Shown here piece by piece: positions 885 to 10,848 of a stretch of 64,000 nucleotides of DNA. How positions within the stretch are numbered: position 1 is the stretch's first letter; every line of letters starts with the position of its first letter. The position numbers and the translations under genes are program-made. The DNA lies in assembly GCF_036997485.1 (NCBI RefSeq), contig NZ_JAWLPU010000001.1, positions 682,001-746,000 of the forward strand, written 5' to 3'. Under the pieces are notes generated by a model that was given only the letters and a program-made list of their open reading frames with translations, was not told the origin of the DNA and did not search any database. The DNA comes from Brachyspira pilosicoli (GTDB taxonomy: Bacteria > Spirochaetota > Brachyspiria > Brachyspirales > Brachyspiraceae).

Positions 885-1424
885 TCAATCTTCGTAGGTT
901 TTGGTGCTGTCATCTACATGTATTTTGTTTTTGTCATACACTATAGGAGCAATCTTTTCAAACAGTATAAACAATGGTGAAGAAAGTATTACTGTGAGCG
1001 GAAGACCTATAAATAATTCTGAGCGCATAAGCACAGCAACACTTGACAAATCTGCATATATTGCCATTACCAAAAATAAAGCAATAATCTTTATTAAATA
1101 TCCAATTAAAGTAACAAATATTCCAGCTGCAATTTGTTTAATAAATATTCTGCTGTTAAAGAAGCCAACAACCAAACCAATATTAAGAAATATTATAGCA
1201 TAAGAACCAAATGTAGAACTCGAAACAATATCCTGCATTATTCCTATAAAAAATCCGTATATTATTCCCTCAAAAGAACCGTATCTAAATGATAAAAATA
1301 CTAAAAATATAAGAAGCAAATCAGGCTTAGCACCCAATGTTATTCTAATCAAATCATAAGCAGGGGAAGATTGTATTATTAAAAGGATTAATGAGCTTAT
1401 TATAACAGTTATTACTCTTTTCAT
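885..1424 (-). CDS. mreD: Rod shape-determining protein MreD
   Basis: A 179-residue, very hydrophobic protein with about five membrane helices, the size and topology of MreD. The segment FRYGSFEGIIYGFFIGIMQD matches the family pattern in which a charged helix end precedes a glycine-rich helix. Its ATG overlaps the mreC stop as ATGA, so translation is probably coupled. MreD works with MreC and MreB in the elongasome that directs lateral peptidoglycan synthesis. No mrdA (PBP2) or rodA follows; the next gene is convergent. Identification rests mainly on position after mreC and on topology. Confidence 0.88.
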   Translation of the reverse strand: MKRVITVIISSLILLIIQSSPAYDLIRITLGAKPDLLLIFLVFLSFRYGSFEGIIYGFFIGIMQDIVSSSTFGSYAIIFLNIGLVVGFFNSRIFIKQIAAGIFVTLIGYLIKIIALFLVMAIYADLSSVAVLMRSELFIGLPLTVILSSPLFILFEKIAPIVYDKNKIHVDDSTKTYED

Positions 1425-2308
1425 TTATTTGTAACTTCACCCTCTTCATATTCTTCATTAGCAAGCATAATAATTTCTCTGTCTGGAATCTTTTTTATCA
1501 CATACACATTTTCTAAAGTTGAAAAATCAACTATAGGCTCAATATACAAATCGTGAAAGAGTCCATAATTCTTTTTCTCAACTTTAAACACATTTCCAAC
1601 CAATATTCCGCTTGGGAAAACTCCTCCCATTCCGCTAGTATAAACTTTTTCACCCTCTTCAACATCAATCTGCAAATCAATATACTGCAAATGTGTTTGA
1701 GTGGAACGAGGATTCTGACCGCTCATAATACCAGTAGCCTTAGAACTCTCAAGCATAACAGATATTTGAGACCTTTCATCTATGAGAGATAAAACCCTAC
1801 TATTATATTTTCTCACTTCTACAACCTTGCCAACAAGCCCCTTGTATCCGCTTTTATATGATATTACAGGCATACCCACAACAATACCATGAGCCCTTCC
1901 TTTGTTAATCACTATAGTGTTGTAGAAGTTTTGAGGGTCTTTTGAAACTATCTCAGCATATTCTAATGGATATTCATCAGTAGGTGCTTCATTTAATAAT
2001 GCTCTTAATCTTGAGTTCTCCTGACGAAGCTGTTCATATTCTAAAGCTGTGCCGTTTAATTCTGCTATTCTATCTCTAAGTGCCTGAAGCTGACTTTGAA
2101 GTGTAAATATATCTGTAATGCTTGTATAAAGATAAACAAAAGCCTTTGATATATTTTGCGTAGCATTTTGCACAGGATATACACCAAGTGCATATATAGA
2201 ACGCAAGTCAAAAACAAAATTACTCCTATTAAGAACCATAAATATTGACGCTATAAGACTAAGCGTAATATAAAGTATAAGTAATTTGTGTTTTAATATA
2301 TTATTCAC
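1421..2308 (-). CDS. mreC: Rod shape-determining protein MreC
   Basis: A 295-residue protein with a short cytoplasmic start, one membrane helix near residues 10-30, a coiled coil near residues 60-95 (LQSQLQALRDRIAELNG) and a periplasmic beta domain. The motifs VINKGRAHGIVVGMPVIS and GVFPSGILVGNV are typical of MreC. MreC links cytoplasmic MreB to the periplasmic cell-wall enzymes. It begins 3 bases after mreB and overlaps mreD, so the three genes are clearly one transcript. The acidic C-terminal tail (EEYEEGEVTNK) follows the conserved domain. Confidence 0.93.
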   Translation of the reverse strand: MNNILKHKLLILYITLSLIASIFMVLNRSNFVFDLRSIYALGVYPVQNATQNISKAFVYLYTSITDIFTLQSQLQALRDRIAELNGTALEYEQLRQENSRLRALLNEAPTDEYPLEYAEIVSKDPQNFYNTIVINKGRAHGIVVGMPVISYKSGYKGLVGKVVEVRKYNSRVLSLIDERSQISVMLESSKATGIMSGQNPRSTQTHLQYIDLQIDVEEGEKVYTSGMGGVFPSGILVGNVFKVEKKNYGLFHDLYIEPIVDFSTLENVYVIKKIPDREIIMLANEEYEEGEVTNK

Positions 2309-2311
2309 TTT

Positions 2312-3337
2312 TTAAGAAAATCTTCTATAATTTTTTAAATTTCTAGTCTCTTCTATAAACTTACCGCAGCCAATAGCCACACAAGTAAGAGGACTTTCAG
2401 CAAGTATAACAGGAACACCAGTCTCTATAGATATTAAATCTGTAAAGCCAGGAAGTAAAGAAGTACCGCCACTCATAACAATACCTCTCTCAACAATATC
2501 AGCAGCTATCTCTGGAGGTGTTTGATTAAGCACATATTTTACAGCCTCCAATATCTCAAGCAATATATCAGATATAGCATCTTTTACTTCAGCACTGTTA
2601 ATAGTTAAAGTTTTAGGAAGACCAGATACAGAATCTCTTCCTCTTATGTCCATAGTCTTAGATATATCACCCTTATAAGCATGCCCAATATTAATCTTAA
2701 TCTCTTCAGCAGTTTTTTCACCAATATATAAGTTGTGGGTTCTTTGCATATATTTGATAATAGCATCATCAAGCTCATCGCCGCCCACACGTATAGAAGC
2801 ACTGCGTACCATACTACCAAGTGAAAGTACAGCAACCTCAGTAGTACCGCCGCCTATCTCTATAATCATATTACCATGAGGTTCATTAATAGGCATGTCC
2901 GCTCCAATTGCAGCAGCCCTCGCCTGCTCTATTAAAAATATAGTTCTCGCTCCCGCCTGCTCGCAGCTTTCACGTACAGCACGCCTCTCAACTTCTGTAA
3001 TGCCTGTAGGAATACCTATTGCAATCCTCGGTTTTACCAAAGTTTTTTTATTGTGAACTTTATTGATAAAATATCTTATCATCTTTTCAACAGTTTCAAA
3101 ATCTGCAATAACTCCGTCTCTCATAGGTCTTATAGCAGCTATAGAATTTGGTACTTTACCAAGCATTCTTTTAGCCTCATTACCAACAGCTATAACATTC
3201 CCCGTGCTTTTCTCTATAGCAACCACAGAAGGCTCTGCTAAAACAATCCCCTCTCCCTTAACATAAACTAAAGTGTTTGCAGTACCTAAATCTATTCCCA
3301 TATCACTTGAGAACATATTATACAACCAACTAAACAT
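2312..3337 (-). CDS. mreB: Rod shape-determining protein MreB (bacterial actin)
   Basis: A 341-residue actin-fold ATPase of normal length. Phosphate-binding loop 1 is seen as [19 protein letters not shown], phosphate loop 2 as [17 protein letters not shown], and the adenosine motif as [13 protein letters not shown]. It polymerises under the inner membrane and positions the cell-wall synthesis machinery. The ATG has a good AAGGAG ribosome site 10-12 bases upstream. The gene sits between a TPR membrane protein and mreC in one minus-strand operon. Confidence 0.97.
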
Positions 3338-3342
3338 ATATA

Positions 3343-4281
3343 CTATAATCTCCTTAATGCGTCCCTAGCGGGTTTATAGTTATTATCTATTTTTAATGCT
3401 TCTCTAAACATAGCAATCGCTTCATTAATTCGCTTTGTTTTTCTAAATAATTCCCCTATACTATAATATAAATCAGGATTTTTGTCATCTAATAATAATG
3501 CTTTTTTGTAAAAAAATTCGCTTTCTTTATACAAGCCCTGCCTATAATATAAATCCCCAAGCTTAGAATATGATTTCGCTTCCAACTTATAATCATTATT
3601 AAACTTGCCGTCTATATAAGAAAGTATTTGTATTGCTTTGGTGTAGTTTTTATTTCCCTCATAAGCAATAGCAAGCTCATAATATAATTCTAAATTCAAA
3701 AACTCTTTATTATTCTCTGTATCTCTTTTTATAGCATATTCTAAATTCTCTATCGCCTCTTCGTAGTAACCAATCCTATAACATATCTTAGCAAGCTCTA
3801 TAACAGTAGATACCCTATTATCGCCATTTTTTATAGCCTCTAAATAAGAATTATAAGCATCTATATAGTAAGAACTTCCAAGTCTCTGAAACCCATAAGC
3901 TAATCTCTGATATATTATGTATTTATTTTTTATAAACTTTGAAGTTAATAACATTTGCTTTGCATATTTAGTAATATTTTCACTTGCTGTTGTTATAACA
4001 TCTCTATCTGTAGTTATTAGAAGAATATTATAATATAAATCAATACCCGCCATTAATATATTTTTATTTAACGGCTTTCGGCTATGAAGGTCTTTAAATA
4101 TAAAAGAAGCATTATCATAATCTTCTAAAGCTATATAATCATAAATATATCTAATTCTCTTTTTTTCTATATAATTTGAAATAAATAAATAAGACAATAT
4201 AACCGTTAAAATAATACCTGCCAAAGTTGCAATAATGATTCTTGCATTAATTTTTCTTTCAACATCGTATAAATAAGGCAT
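3343..4281 (-). CDS. Membrane-anchored TPR repeat protein
   Basis: A 312-residue protein with one N-terminal membrane helix (about residues 17-37) and then TPR-type helical repeats. The last three are clear: [40 protein letters not shown], and a final partial repeat. The repeats probably face the periplasm or cytoplasm as a protein-protein scaffold; topology was not determined. Only 5 bases separate it from mreB and 8 from the bactofilin gene. Its own ATG lacks a clear Shine-Dalgarno, which suggests translational coupling to the bactofilin gene. Position suggests a role in cell shape or envelope assembly; this is inference. Confidence 0.75.
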
Positions 4282-4289
4282 ATTAATTA

Positions 4290-4691
4290 TTATTGATTAT
4301 TATTTGTAGAACCGTATAAATTAAGTATAGTTTCTTTAGGGTTAGTTTTAGGGTCAGGTGATACTATACAAACACCCTCAAGTATAACGCCATTTTGTAT
4401 GATAAGTTCAGGAGTACGAATCTCGCCAAGAACTCTGCTTGTAGGCATAAGCATTACTCTATTTTTTGCCTCAATATTCCCTATCACTATTCCTTCTATA
4501 ACTGCTGAATTAGTTTTAATATTAGATTTTACCTTTCCGCTGTTTCCTACTGTAAGGCTGTCAACTTCAAGATTATCTCCTTCATAACAACCATCTATTC
4601 TTAAACTGCCATTAAGTGTAAACTCGCCTCTAAAATATGAACCTTCACCTATTATAGAATTTGATTCTGATATTTCATTTTTTCTAAACAT
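4290..4691 (-). CDS. Bactofilin (polymer-forming cytoskeletal protein)
   Basis: A 133-residue protein made of short glycine-rich beta-strand repeats: GEGSYFRGEFTLNGSLRIDG, then GNSGKVKSNIKTNSAVIEG, then TSRVLGEIRTPELIIQNG. This is the right-handed beta-helix of bactofilins. These proteins form filaments and often anchor cell-wall modifying enzymes; in helical bacteria they affect curvature or pitch. The start codon has a strong GAGGAGG site. It overlaps the cheR stop by one base (TAATG) and is followed 8 bases later by the TPR gene. Confidence 0.92.
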   Translation of the reverse strand: MFRKNEISESNSIIGEGSYFRGEFTLNGSLRIDGCYEGDNLEVDSLTVGNSGKVKSNIKTNSAVIEGIVIGNIEAKNRVMLMPTSRVLGEIRTPELIIQNGVILEGVCIVSPDPKTNPKETILNLYGSTNNNQ

Positions 4692-5521
4692 TAAAATACC
4701 TCCTCGCTTTTGGTATATACAATCGAATTATCTATATTATTAAATTTAAATTTCGTATCAAGTCCGAATAAAGACTCGCTATGACCTATAAATAAAAATC
4801 CATGCTTATTTAATATATCATAAAATCTATTAACAGTCAATTTAACAGACTCATTATCAAAATATATAAGTACATTCCTGCAAAAAACAACATCTATATT
4901 TAAATATTTGCTGTTCGGATTAATAAGATTATGATATTCAAAACTAACCATGCTCTTTATTTCATCTTTAACTTTATATTTATTATTAGGAAGCTCATCA
5001 AAATATTTAGATAAATACTCAGCACTTATATTAGAAACTTTATCCTTATCATAAATCCCTTTCTTAGCAACCTCCAAAGACTGCATAGAAATATCCGTAG
5101 CATATATTTTAACATTTGATGAATATATCTTCGGAGTCTCTAAACATGTCATCGCTATAGAATATGGCTCCTCCCCTGTAGAACAACCAGAACTCCATAT
5201 ATATATATTATCCGAATATCTTTTATTATTTAATATGATAGGCAGAACTTTATTTTTTAATAGCTCAAAATTGCTCTCTGTTCTAAAAAATTTGGTAAGG
5301 TTTGTAGTGATATTATCTAAAAATAATTTTAATTCATTTTTATCATTTGAAATAAGATGAAAATAATCTCCTACATTAAGAATATTTCTCTCTTTCATAG
5401 AAGACTGTATTCTTGATTCTAATATTACCTGATTGATAAGATTAAACCGAATCCCGCTTTTATTATATATAAACTCCTTGAATAATTCTAAATATTCTTC
5501 ATTTAAACTGCTACTATTCAA
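4691..5521 (-). CDS. cheR: CheR-type chemoreceptor glutamate methyltransferase
   Basis: A 276-residue SAM-dependent methyltransferase. The N-terminal helical domain contains TNLTKFFR. The SAM site is WSSGCSTGEEPYSIA, and a later VVFCRNVLIYF motif is typical of CheR. CheR methylates glutamates on chemoreceptor signalling domains. No in-frame ATG exists near the expected N-terminus; TTG at 5521 gives the expected domain start, and no convincing Shine-Dalgarno precedes it. It may be translated by re-initiation after the cheY-like gene 25 bases upstream. Its place in front of a bactofilin and mreBCD is unusual. Confidence 0.9.
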   Translation of the reverse strand: MNSSSLNEEYLELFKEFIYNKSGIRFNLINQVILESRIQSSMKERNILNVGDYFHLISNDKNELKLFLDNITTNLTKFFRTESNFELLKNKVLPIILNNKRYSDNIYIWSSGCSTGEEPYSIAMTCLETPKIYSSNVKIYATDISMQSLEVAKKGIYDKDKVSNISAEYLSKYFDELPNNKYKVKDEIKSMVSFEYHNLINPNSKYLNIDVVFCRNVLIYFDNESVKLTVNRFYDILNKHGFLFIGHSESLFGLDTKFKFNNIDNSIVYTKSEEVF

Positions 5522-5546
5522 ATTAATGATACCGTATTTTATTAAA

Positions 5547-5963
5547 TCATTTCTTGTCTAGAACCATTTTTATACGCTCTAAAACTTTTTTTCTATCCAA
5601 AGGCTTAGTAATATAATTTTTAGCACCAGCAAGAAGTGCCTTCTTAACCATATCTTCTTTACCTAAAGCACTAACCATAACAACTTTAGCATTTTTATCA
5701 AACTCTATTATTTTTGTAAGAGCTGTAATACCGTCCATTTTTGGCATAGTGATGTCCATAGTAACCAAATCAGGCTTTAGTTCCTTATACATCATAACAC
5801 CCTCTTCTCCATTTTCTGCTGTGCCTACTACTGTATACTGCTCTGATACTAATATCTGCTGCAATTGTTTTACTACAAAAGCTGAATCATCTACCAATAA
5901 GACTCTAAAAGATTTACCAAATTCATTTATTCCATCTGCTGCTTTTTTATTTATATCAGACAT
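5547..5963 (-). CDS. CheY-like single-domain response regulator
   Basis: A 138-residue receiver domain with an 18-residue N-terminal extension. The acidic pair is in VLLVDDSAFV (residues 25-26), the phospho-acceptor is Asp70 in VTMDITMPKMDG, and the conserved Lys120 is in YITKP. No output domain follows, so it acts by protein-protein contact. By motif style (VDDSAFV, KMDGITAL) it resembles CheY and the receiver of CheB. It is the first gene of the cheR-bactofilin-mre operon. A TAAGGAG site precedes the ATG. Which kinase phosphorylates it cannot be told from this window. Confidence 0.9.
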   Translation of the reverse strand: MSDINKKAADGINEFGKSFRVLLVDDSAFVVKQLQQILVSEQYTVVGTAENGEEGVMMYKELKPDLVTMDITMPKMDGITALTKIIEFDKNAKVVMVSALGKEDMVKKALLAGAKNYITKPLDRKKVLERIKMVLDKK

Positions 5964-9462: not shown

Positions 9463-9562
9463 AGGCTAAAAAATGCAGCCTTTTTGGTTCTTTGTGGCAC
9501 GCCGCAAGGGCACTTCCTTCGGTCGCAAAAGAACTGGGGTGCGGGGCAAAGCCCTGCAAACA
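9463..9562 (+). repeat. Type-1 hairpin repeat with one inserted unit
   Basis: AATGCAG, then a stem TTTTGGTTCTTT / AAAAGAACTGGGG, then GGGGCAAAGCCC followed by TGCAAA. Between the stem arms lies an insert (9502-9526) that begins CCGCAAGG and ends CGGTCGC, a relative of the units at 724 and 28614. A matching element without that insert is at 30705. A 62-codon frame crosses it, but this looks incidental. Confidence 0.75.
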
Positions 9563-9696
9563 AAAAACTCAAAAATATTTTCACAAACTACTAAATATTT
9601 ACTATATGCACAAAAAATAATATTTAATTTAAACAATAAACATACTTTTTCCGAGTATTAATACAGTAAAATTAATTTTTATTATGATGAGTAAAT

Positions 9697-10848
9697 ATGG
9701 CTATAATAGAGTTTAAACTACCAACAAAAATAAAATTCGGCGTTGATTCTATAGAATCTCTTCAGGAAACCATCAAACAATATGGCGGAAGAGTTGTTAT
9801 AGTAACAGATGGAAATTCTTTTAATCAAATAGGCGTAATAGATAAAATCGTTAGTAAATTAGAAGATAGTCTAATGAATGTTATGGTTTACTCTAAGGTT
9901 AATTCAAACTCAAACAGTGATGAATCGGATATTATAGCCAATTTAATAAGATACAGCAAAGCTGAATGCATAGTTGCTATAGGAGGCTTTAAAGTACAAA
10001 ATATAGCTAAAGGAGCTTCTGTTGTAGTTACTAATAGCGGTGAAGCTTCAGATTATGTATCAGGGCAGACTGTATATCATAAACCATTTCCATTAATATC
10101 TGTGCCTACAATACTCGGGTCTCTATCAGAGATTACTACAGGAATGTATTTAGTAGATAAATATGACGGAATATGCAAAGAATCAACAGATAAAAATATA
10201 TATGTTAGTGATTGTATAATAGACCCTGCATTATATACAACAGTGCCTGTAAAATATTCTATAAGCAGTGCTTTAAGTGTATTTGCCATGGCTTTTGATT
10301 TGTATATGAGTACTACTATAAATGAAATTAATGCTCCTATTATTAAAAATGCTATGAAGGTTAGTATAAAAGGACTAAGTAAGCTTATATTAGACAGCTC
10401 AAATGTAGACAATATATCAAATATAGCTATGGCTAATATGATGTGTGCTATGGCTGCCTCTAATGCCAATCTTGGTGCTTCAAGGGCTTTATCTATTGCT
10501 ATTAATAATATGTATAATGTTAATAAATCTATTATTGCTTCAATGCTTCTTCCGCATATTATGGAATATTATATACCTGTTGTACCTGATAAATATACTA
10601 TACTTGCAGACTTCATTAATGGAGTTGACCCAGAAATGACTCCTTTTGAAATAGCAAGCCAAAGCGGTGAATATATTAAAAAGCTTCTTCATGACCTAAA
10701 CTTGCCTCGAAGACTTAATGAAATAAATATAGACAGAAGTAAATTTAATGATGTTGCAGGTATAGCTCTAACTTATAGCGGTATGGACAAGTTGCCAAAA
10801 CCTATGGCTCATGATGCTATTACAACAATATTAGACCAAGCTTATTAA
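9697..10848 (+). CDS. Fe-ADH-family protein lacking metal ligands (pseudoenzyme candidate)
   Basis: A 383-residue protein with the full iron-alcohol dehydrogenase fold: N-terminal Rossmann-like half (KIKFGVDSIESL), a dinucleotide-loop region, and a helical C-terminal half. The usual GGGS(x)D cofactor loop is GGFKVQNIAK. The normal GMDALxHAxE helix reads ALSVFAMAFD, so the metal Asp and His become Ser and Met. The normal GAVHAMAHxxGxxYxxxHG helix reads GASRALSIAINNMYNVNKS, so all three histidines are lost. Flanking residues (LLPHIMEYY) are well kept. It is unlikely to be a metal-dependent dehydrogenase. Function is unknown. Confidence 0.82.
   Translation: MAIIEFKLPTKIKFGVDSIESLQETIKQYGGRVVIVTDGNSFNQIGVIDKIVSKLEDSLMNVMVYSKVNSNSNSDESDIIANLIRYSKAECIVAIGGFKVQNIAKGASVVVTNSGEASDYVSGQTVYHKPFPLISVPTILGSLSEITTGMYLVDKYDGICKESTDKNIYVSDCIIDPALYTTVPVKYSISSALSVFAMAFDLYMSTTINEINAPIIKNAMKVSIKGLSKLILDSSNVDNISNIAMANMMCAMAASNANLGASRALSIAINNMYNVNKSIIASMLLPHIMEYYIPVVPDKYTILADFINGVDPEMTPFEIASQSGEYIKKLLHDLNLPRRLNEINIDRSKFNDVAGIALTYSGMDKLPKPMAHDAITTILDQAY

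Follow-up and report, generated by a model that had tools for sequence, protein, structure and literature searches.

A gene of Brachyspira pilosicoli that retains the full-length fold of a group III Fe-type alcohol dehydrogenase (Fe-ADH), and none of its metal ligands, belongs to a family of metal-less proteins found across the Spirochaetota, most of whose members are encoded directly after flgM. FlgM is the anti-sigma factor of σ28 (FliA), which serves the late flagellar genes. We propose that the protein is an ancient pseudoenzyme recruited into the σ28 late-flagellar regulon, where it is likely a partner in the FlgM/FliA circuit or in filament assembly, and we assign this reading a probability of roughly 0.7. 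Loss of the enzyme and membership of the regulon are well supported by sequence comparison; the binding partner and the biochemical step are what we infer from them.

An Fe-ADH fold without metal and cofactor sites

The gene lies in a 64,000-nt stretch of the genome, hereafter the window (Table 1). Its reading frame translates into 383 amino acids with zero internal stops, in agreement with the intact, full-length frame reported in an initial annotation. Pfam families PF00465 (Fe-ADH, E = 2.1e-29) and PF25137 (ADH_Fe_C, E = 9.5e-23) together span the entire protein, and an AlphaFold2 model (pLDDT 82.5, pTM 0.83) has the Fe-ADH fold, with a TM-score of ~0.9 against 1,3-propanediol oxidoreductase (3bfj), ADH2 (3owo) and FucO. 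Thus, by Pfam, AlphaFold2 and TM-score, the protein shares the complete two-domain fold of the group III enzymes (FucO, 1,3-propanediol oxidoreductase, Zymomonas ADH2) at an identity of ~20%.

Table 1. Features of the metal-less Fe-ADH-like gene and its surroundings (window coordinates, unless a contig is named)
Feature	Position	Strand	Basis
Metal-less Fe-ADH-like protein, two-domain group III Fe-ADH fold, 383 aa	9697..10848	+	ORF, Pfam, AlphaFold2, TM-score
σ28-like promoter TAAA-N16-TCCGAGTA, -35 TTAAA, -10 core CCGA, 67 nt 5′ of start codon	9630..9657	+	predicted; position and core conserved in 26/26 Brachyspira
GGFKVQN, codons 96-102, at cofactor loop GGGSxxD (FucO GGGSPQD)	9982..10002	+	alignment
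Ser194 codon, at FucO ligand Asp196	10276..10278	+	alignment
Met198 codon, at FucO ligand His200	10288..10290	+	alignment
Arg263 codon, at FucO ligand His263	10483..10485	+	alignment
Ile267 codon, at FucO catalytic His267	10495..10497	+	alignment
Lys277 codon, at FucO ligand His277	10525..10527	+	alignment
rsmI + flgM pair of the window's genome (G000); Fe-ADH-like gene missing from the post-flgM place held in other spirochaetes	L185 6648-7713; contig C1 ~770,650-771,710		

Ligand positions were read against annotated E. coli FucO (b2799), whose metal ligands we take to be D196, H200, H263 and H277, and in a second alignment against solved Fe-ADHs. The protein has none of the four ligands of the group III enzymes, and neither their catalytic His nor their GGGSxxD loop. 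The replacements are exactly those first described, with Ser, Met, Arg and Lys at the ligand positions, Ile in place of the catalytic His and GGFK in place of GGGS. The flanking residues, which had been called well conserved, are conserved, but only moderately so, and identity to FucO is 19% over the alignment. The metal site is missing from all 26 Brachyspira genomes, while the other alignable Fe-ADHs in the window's genome retain D-H-H-H; the substitutions S194, M198, R263 and K277 are therefore neither chance nor sequencing noise. Among Brachyspirales orthologues the four ligand positions hold, in order, S/A, M/L/S/Y, R/Q and K/M/V/P, and GGF and N102 of the loop are invariant.

The initial annotation had raised the case of ligands placed elsewhere in the fold. 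We looked for them by His columns and found no conserved alternative His, and no replacement His-rich site, among 64 metal-less members; the commonest His column, H287 (52%), is the ordinary LPH of Fe-ADHs. A relocated metal site was accordingly rejected. At the level of sequence the protein lacks the catalytic-metal residues altogether, and a dehydrogenase role is unlikely.

A conserved gene and a phylum-wide clade

Each of 26 Brachyspira species carries one full-length orthologue per genome, and the frame is intact and full length in 30 of the 31 genomes of the order Brachyspirales, in every case without a metal site. A pseudoenzyme under selection had been suggested from the window's gene, and dN/dS among Brachyspira orthologues (Nei-Gojobori) agrees with that suggestion, at 0.054–0.105 in the window's own group and at a median of 0.059 over 187 other Brachyspira pairs. 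Purifying selection acts on the gene. The family-wide loss of the metal site and the single metal-less group described below point the same way.

Homologues were recovered across the Spirochaetota with two profiles, A1, built from the orthologues, and then the broader A2, which rules out an oddity confined to Brachyspira. Wherever the sequence of an flgM-linked match was read, the metal site was absent and its replacements varied, and the best matches read from flagellin-less genomes (L116, L121 and L125) are ordinary D-H-H-H enzymes. We built a tree of 94 proteins, all from spirochaetes, by a quick search, after masking the columns of the ligands and of GGGS and without inferring a root. A single branch with an SH-aLRT of 100 parts 63 metal-less from 31 ligand-bearing proteins, and the window's protein falls on the metal-less side. 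On this tree the metal-less and ligand-bearing states are separated by one change, versus 26.2 in shuffles. We propose that the metal-less Fe-ADH-like proteins of spirochaetes are one clade, for which adjacency to flgM is the usual context and not a defining sequence feature.

The family is wider than the A1/A2 search showed. When the search was started from FlgM, divergent homologues, again with no metal site, were found 3′ of flgM in several families that lack a strong profile match. Very divergent Fe-ADH-like genes lie immediately 3′ of flgM in L131, L208, L146, L206, L210, L211, L221, L137 and L212, and the metal-less profile gives each of these nine roughly double the score of the ligand-bearing profile, or more.

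Linkage to flgM and co-occurrence with flagella

Of the 54 full-length metal-less loci outside Brachyspirales, 50 sit immediately 3′ of flgM in the same orientation, frequently with rsmI in front, whereas none of six ligand-bearing matches adjoins flgM (Fisher p 4e-6, kinship ignored). The identity of the upstream neighbour as FlgM was confirmed by PF04316, and independent FlgM searches yield the same adjacency to the metal-less gene. This linkage is no proof of physical interaction. Adjacency to flgM was not seen in the window's genome or in other Brachyspirales, where rsmI and flgM are still paired and the metal-less gene is located elsewhere. There, the neighbourhood in Brachyspira (a YprB-like nuclease and cysS downstream, varying genes upstream) is uninformative taken alone. 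A G+C-rich segment at 9500–9565, inside an A+T-rich intergenic region and present as a single copy within the window, may represent an intergenic repeat scattered over the genome.

Strong profile matches occur in 160 of 351 flagellin-bearing genomes versus 0 of 42 flagellin-less ones, a comparison that ignores kinship and whose flagellin-less set comes mainly from one or two families. The flagellate family f37, with genomes of ~1 Mb, has no strong profile match, and FlgM is absent from 15 of 15 of its genomes tested. This family would seem to be Borrelia-like, and its lack of both is in line with the absence of σ28 from Borrelia (PMC12655853). Several FlgM-bearing flagellates of families f43, f35, f51 and f53, together with genome G081, have no recognisable copy near flgM, so the metal-less protein is not needed everywhere. 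Three genomes of family f44 (G237, G265 and G317) show the odd combination of a FlgM match without a flagellin match.

T. denticola probably carries the cluster as well, with TDE0202 as its expected member, because TDE0200 bears the annotation tetrapyrrole methylase (PMC3914990), which is RsmI's Pfam family, and TDE0201 is FlgM (PMC9481697).

Predicted σ28-type promoters

Most of the 50 flgM-linked loci have a predicted site of the TAAA-N15-GCCGATAA type ~45–60 nt 5′ of flgM. Measured against shuffles, 33 of the 50 flgM promoters reach p<0.05 and 21 reach about p<=0.01, and the match is perfect (12/12) in four loci. A site directly before the Fe-ADH-like gene was found in only 1 of the 50, so that a promoter of its own is not the rule where flgM precedes the gene.

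In Brachyspira, a site of the TTAAA...TTCCGA type is conserved before the metal-less gene in 26 of 26 genomes; similar sites precede the gene in L047, L048 and L049, and none was seen in L046. The window's own -10 element, CCGAGTA, is an imperfect match, and on its own the σ28 pattern is found at three places in the window, which equals the chance expectation and is not significant. The predicted site owes its significance to cross-species conservation only. The σ28 promoter of T. denticola, mapped as TTAA/CCGATAA (PMC9481697), is of the same type as the spirochaete sites predicted here. Relative to the FlgM/FliA unit of that organism (TDE0201/TDE2683, PMC9481697), the addition in most families is a metal-less gene right 3′ of flgM and, by prediction, under the same σ28-type promoter. 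The role in binding or regulation that the initial annotation had offered as an example gains specific support from the flgM linkage and these predicted promoters.

Elsewhere in the window, genes read from their sequences as cheY-like, cheR-like, bactofilin-like, TPR, MreB-, MreC- and MreD-like run in one direction on the minus strand (885–5963), with the chemotaxis genes adjoining the cell-shape genes. A σ28-like site, TAAATTATAATAAGTTCTAATACGATAA, lies 60 nt upstream of the cheY-like gene.

Discussion

In the scheme that we favour, a group III Fe-ADH fold would have been recruited into the σ28 regulon, apparently once and early in the Spirochaetota. In most families the gene is encoded right after flgM behind one shared, predicted σ28-type promoter, and in Brachyspira behind its own predicted σ28-like promoter. 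The most likely role of the two-domain scaffold is that of a binding partner in the cytoplasm, either within the FlgM/FliA circuit or in a filament-assembly step under that circuit's control; the scaffold could, for example, hold or protect FlgM or FliA and so tune late flagellar gene expression. A retained small ligand might serve as a signal, although the scheme does not require one.

Such a ligand is central to the alternative that fares best, a sensor in which the former cofactor cleft takes up NAD(H) or a different small molecule and links flagellar gene expression to metabolic state. Its precedent for a regulatory Fe-ADH-like protein is Pseudomonas ErcA, which takes part in the regulation of ethanol utilisation, as cited in PMC12997753. 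ErcA (NF041833) is also the best NCBIfam match of the window's protein; however, the score of 145.3 bits is far under the curated cut-off of 550 bits, and ErcA belongs with sensor kinases and ethanol oxidation rather than with flagella. None of the members read keeps the GGGSxxD loop, and from family to family the cleft shows free variation; we regard a sensor as rather unlikely.

Less probable is a metal-independent enzyme that uses the same fold on a new flagella-related substrate, for instance in flagellin modification. The fold is kept, many members have Lys or Arg in place of the fourth ligand, and a maleylacetate reductase of the Fe-ADH fold depends on His and Lys (PMC5741723). Such reductases (PcpE; 3hl0, 3w5s) share the fold at a TM-score of ~0.8, but neither of the catalytic residues they need is conserved at >=85% in the 64 metal-less members. 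The positions that do reach this level are Gly, Pro, Asp, Ser, Leu and Ala, structural in type (e.g. G96, P137, D154, D176, S205 and P286), and His, Lys, Arg, Cys and Tyr are all missing from them, which makes a conserved new active site unlikely. Moreover, three residues that never vary among the ligand-bearing proteins, G98, S99 and K160, have disappeared, and no replacement residue is conserved in the pocket of the members read.

We give similarly little credence to the idea that the flgM link reflects nothing more than conserved gene order, devoid of functional meaning, and that the protein has a general housekeeping role. A housekeeping gene, rsmI, does share the cluster and remains linked to flgM. 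The Brachyspirales gene, however, sits apart from flgM and yet has its own predicted σ28-like promoter, and strong matches are absent both from the flagellin-less genomes and from the FlgM-less flagellates of f37. A decaying gene or an annotation artefact, which the loss of all catalytic residues might bring to mind, is effectively ruled out by the confident AlphaFold2 fold, the frame intact in nearly all genomes of the order, complete conservation in Brachyspira and a dN/dS of ~0.06–0.1, which marks purifying selection.

Within the proposed recruitment into the σ28 regulon, a bolder version can be put forward tentatively: the dead alcohol dehydrogenase might bind FlgM or FliA directly as a third core component of the FlgM–σ28 checkpoint in spirochaetes, and so help to explain why their FlgM is unlike that of enteric bacteria. 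In T. denticola, FlgM is reported to stabilise FliA, and cells that have lost FlgM to express less flagellin and to show disturbed flagellar polarity (reviewed in PMC12655853). A second protein encoded with FlgM would be an attractive part of this unusual behaviour, and if flgM deletions in T. denticola are polar on the metal-less gene, part of the flgM phenotype may belong to that gene. Our literature search, which did not cover the main paper on T. denticola FlgM (J Bacteriol 2023, 205:e00463-22), found no link between FlgM and an Fe-ADH and no FlgM–FliA circuit that includes an Fe-ADH-like protein.

As a family, the metal-less proteins make a clear and ancient case of an enzyme fold put to another use, masked by its annotation as an alcohol dehydrogenase. 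Spirochaetes swim by means of periplasmic flagella, and these are not regulated in the textbook manner; a phylum-wide family derived from a dead metabolic enzyme and encoded with flgM makes a strong candidate, as yet unstudied, for one of the regulatory parts still missing.
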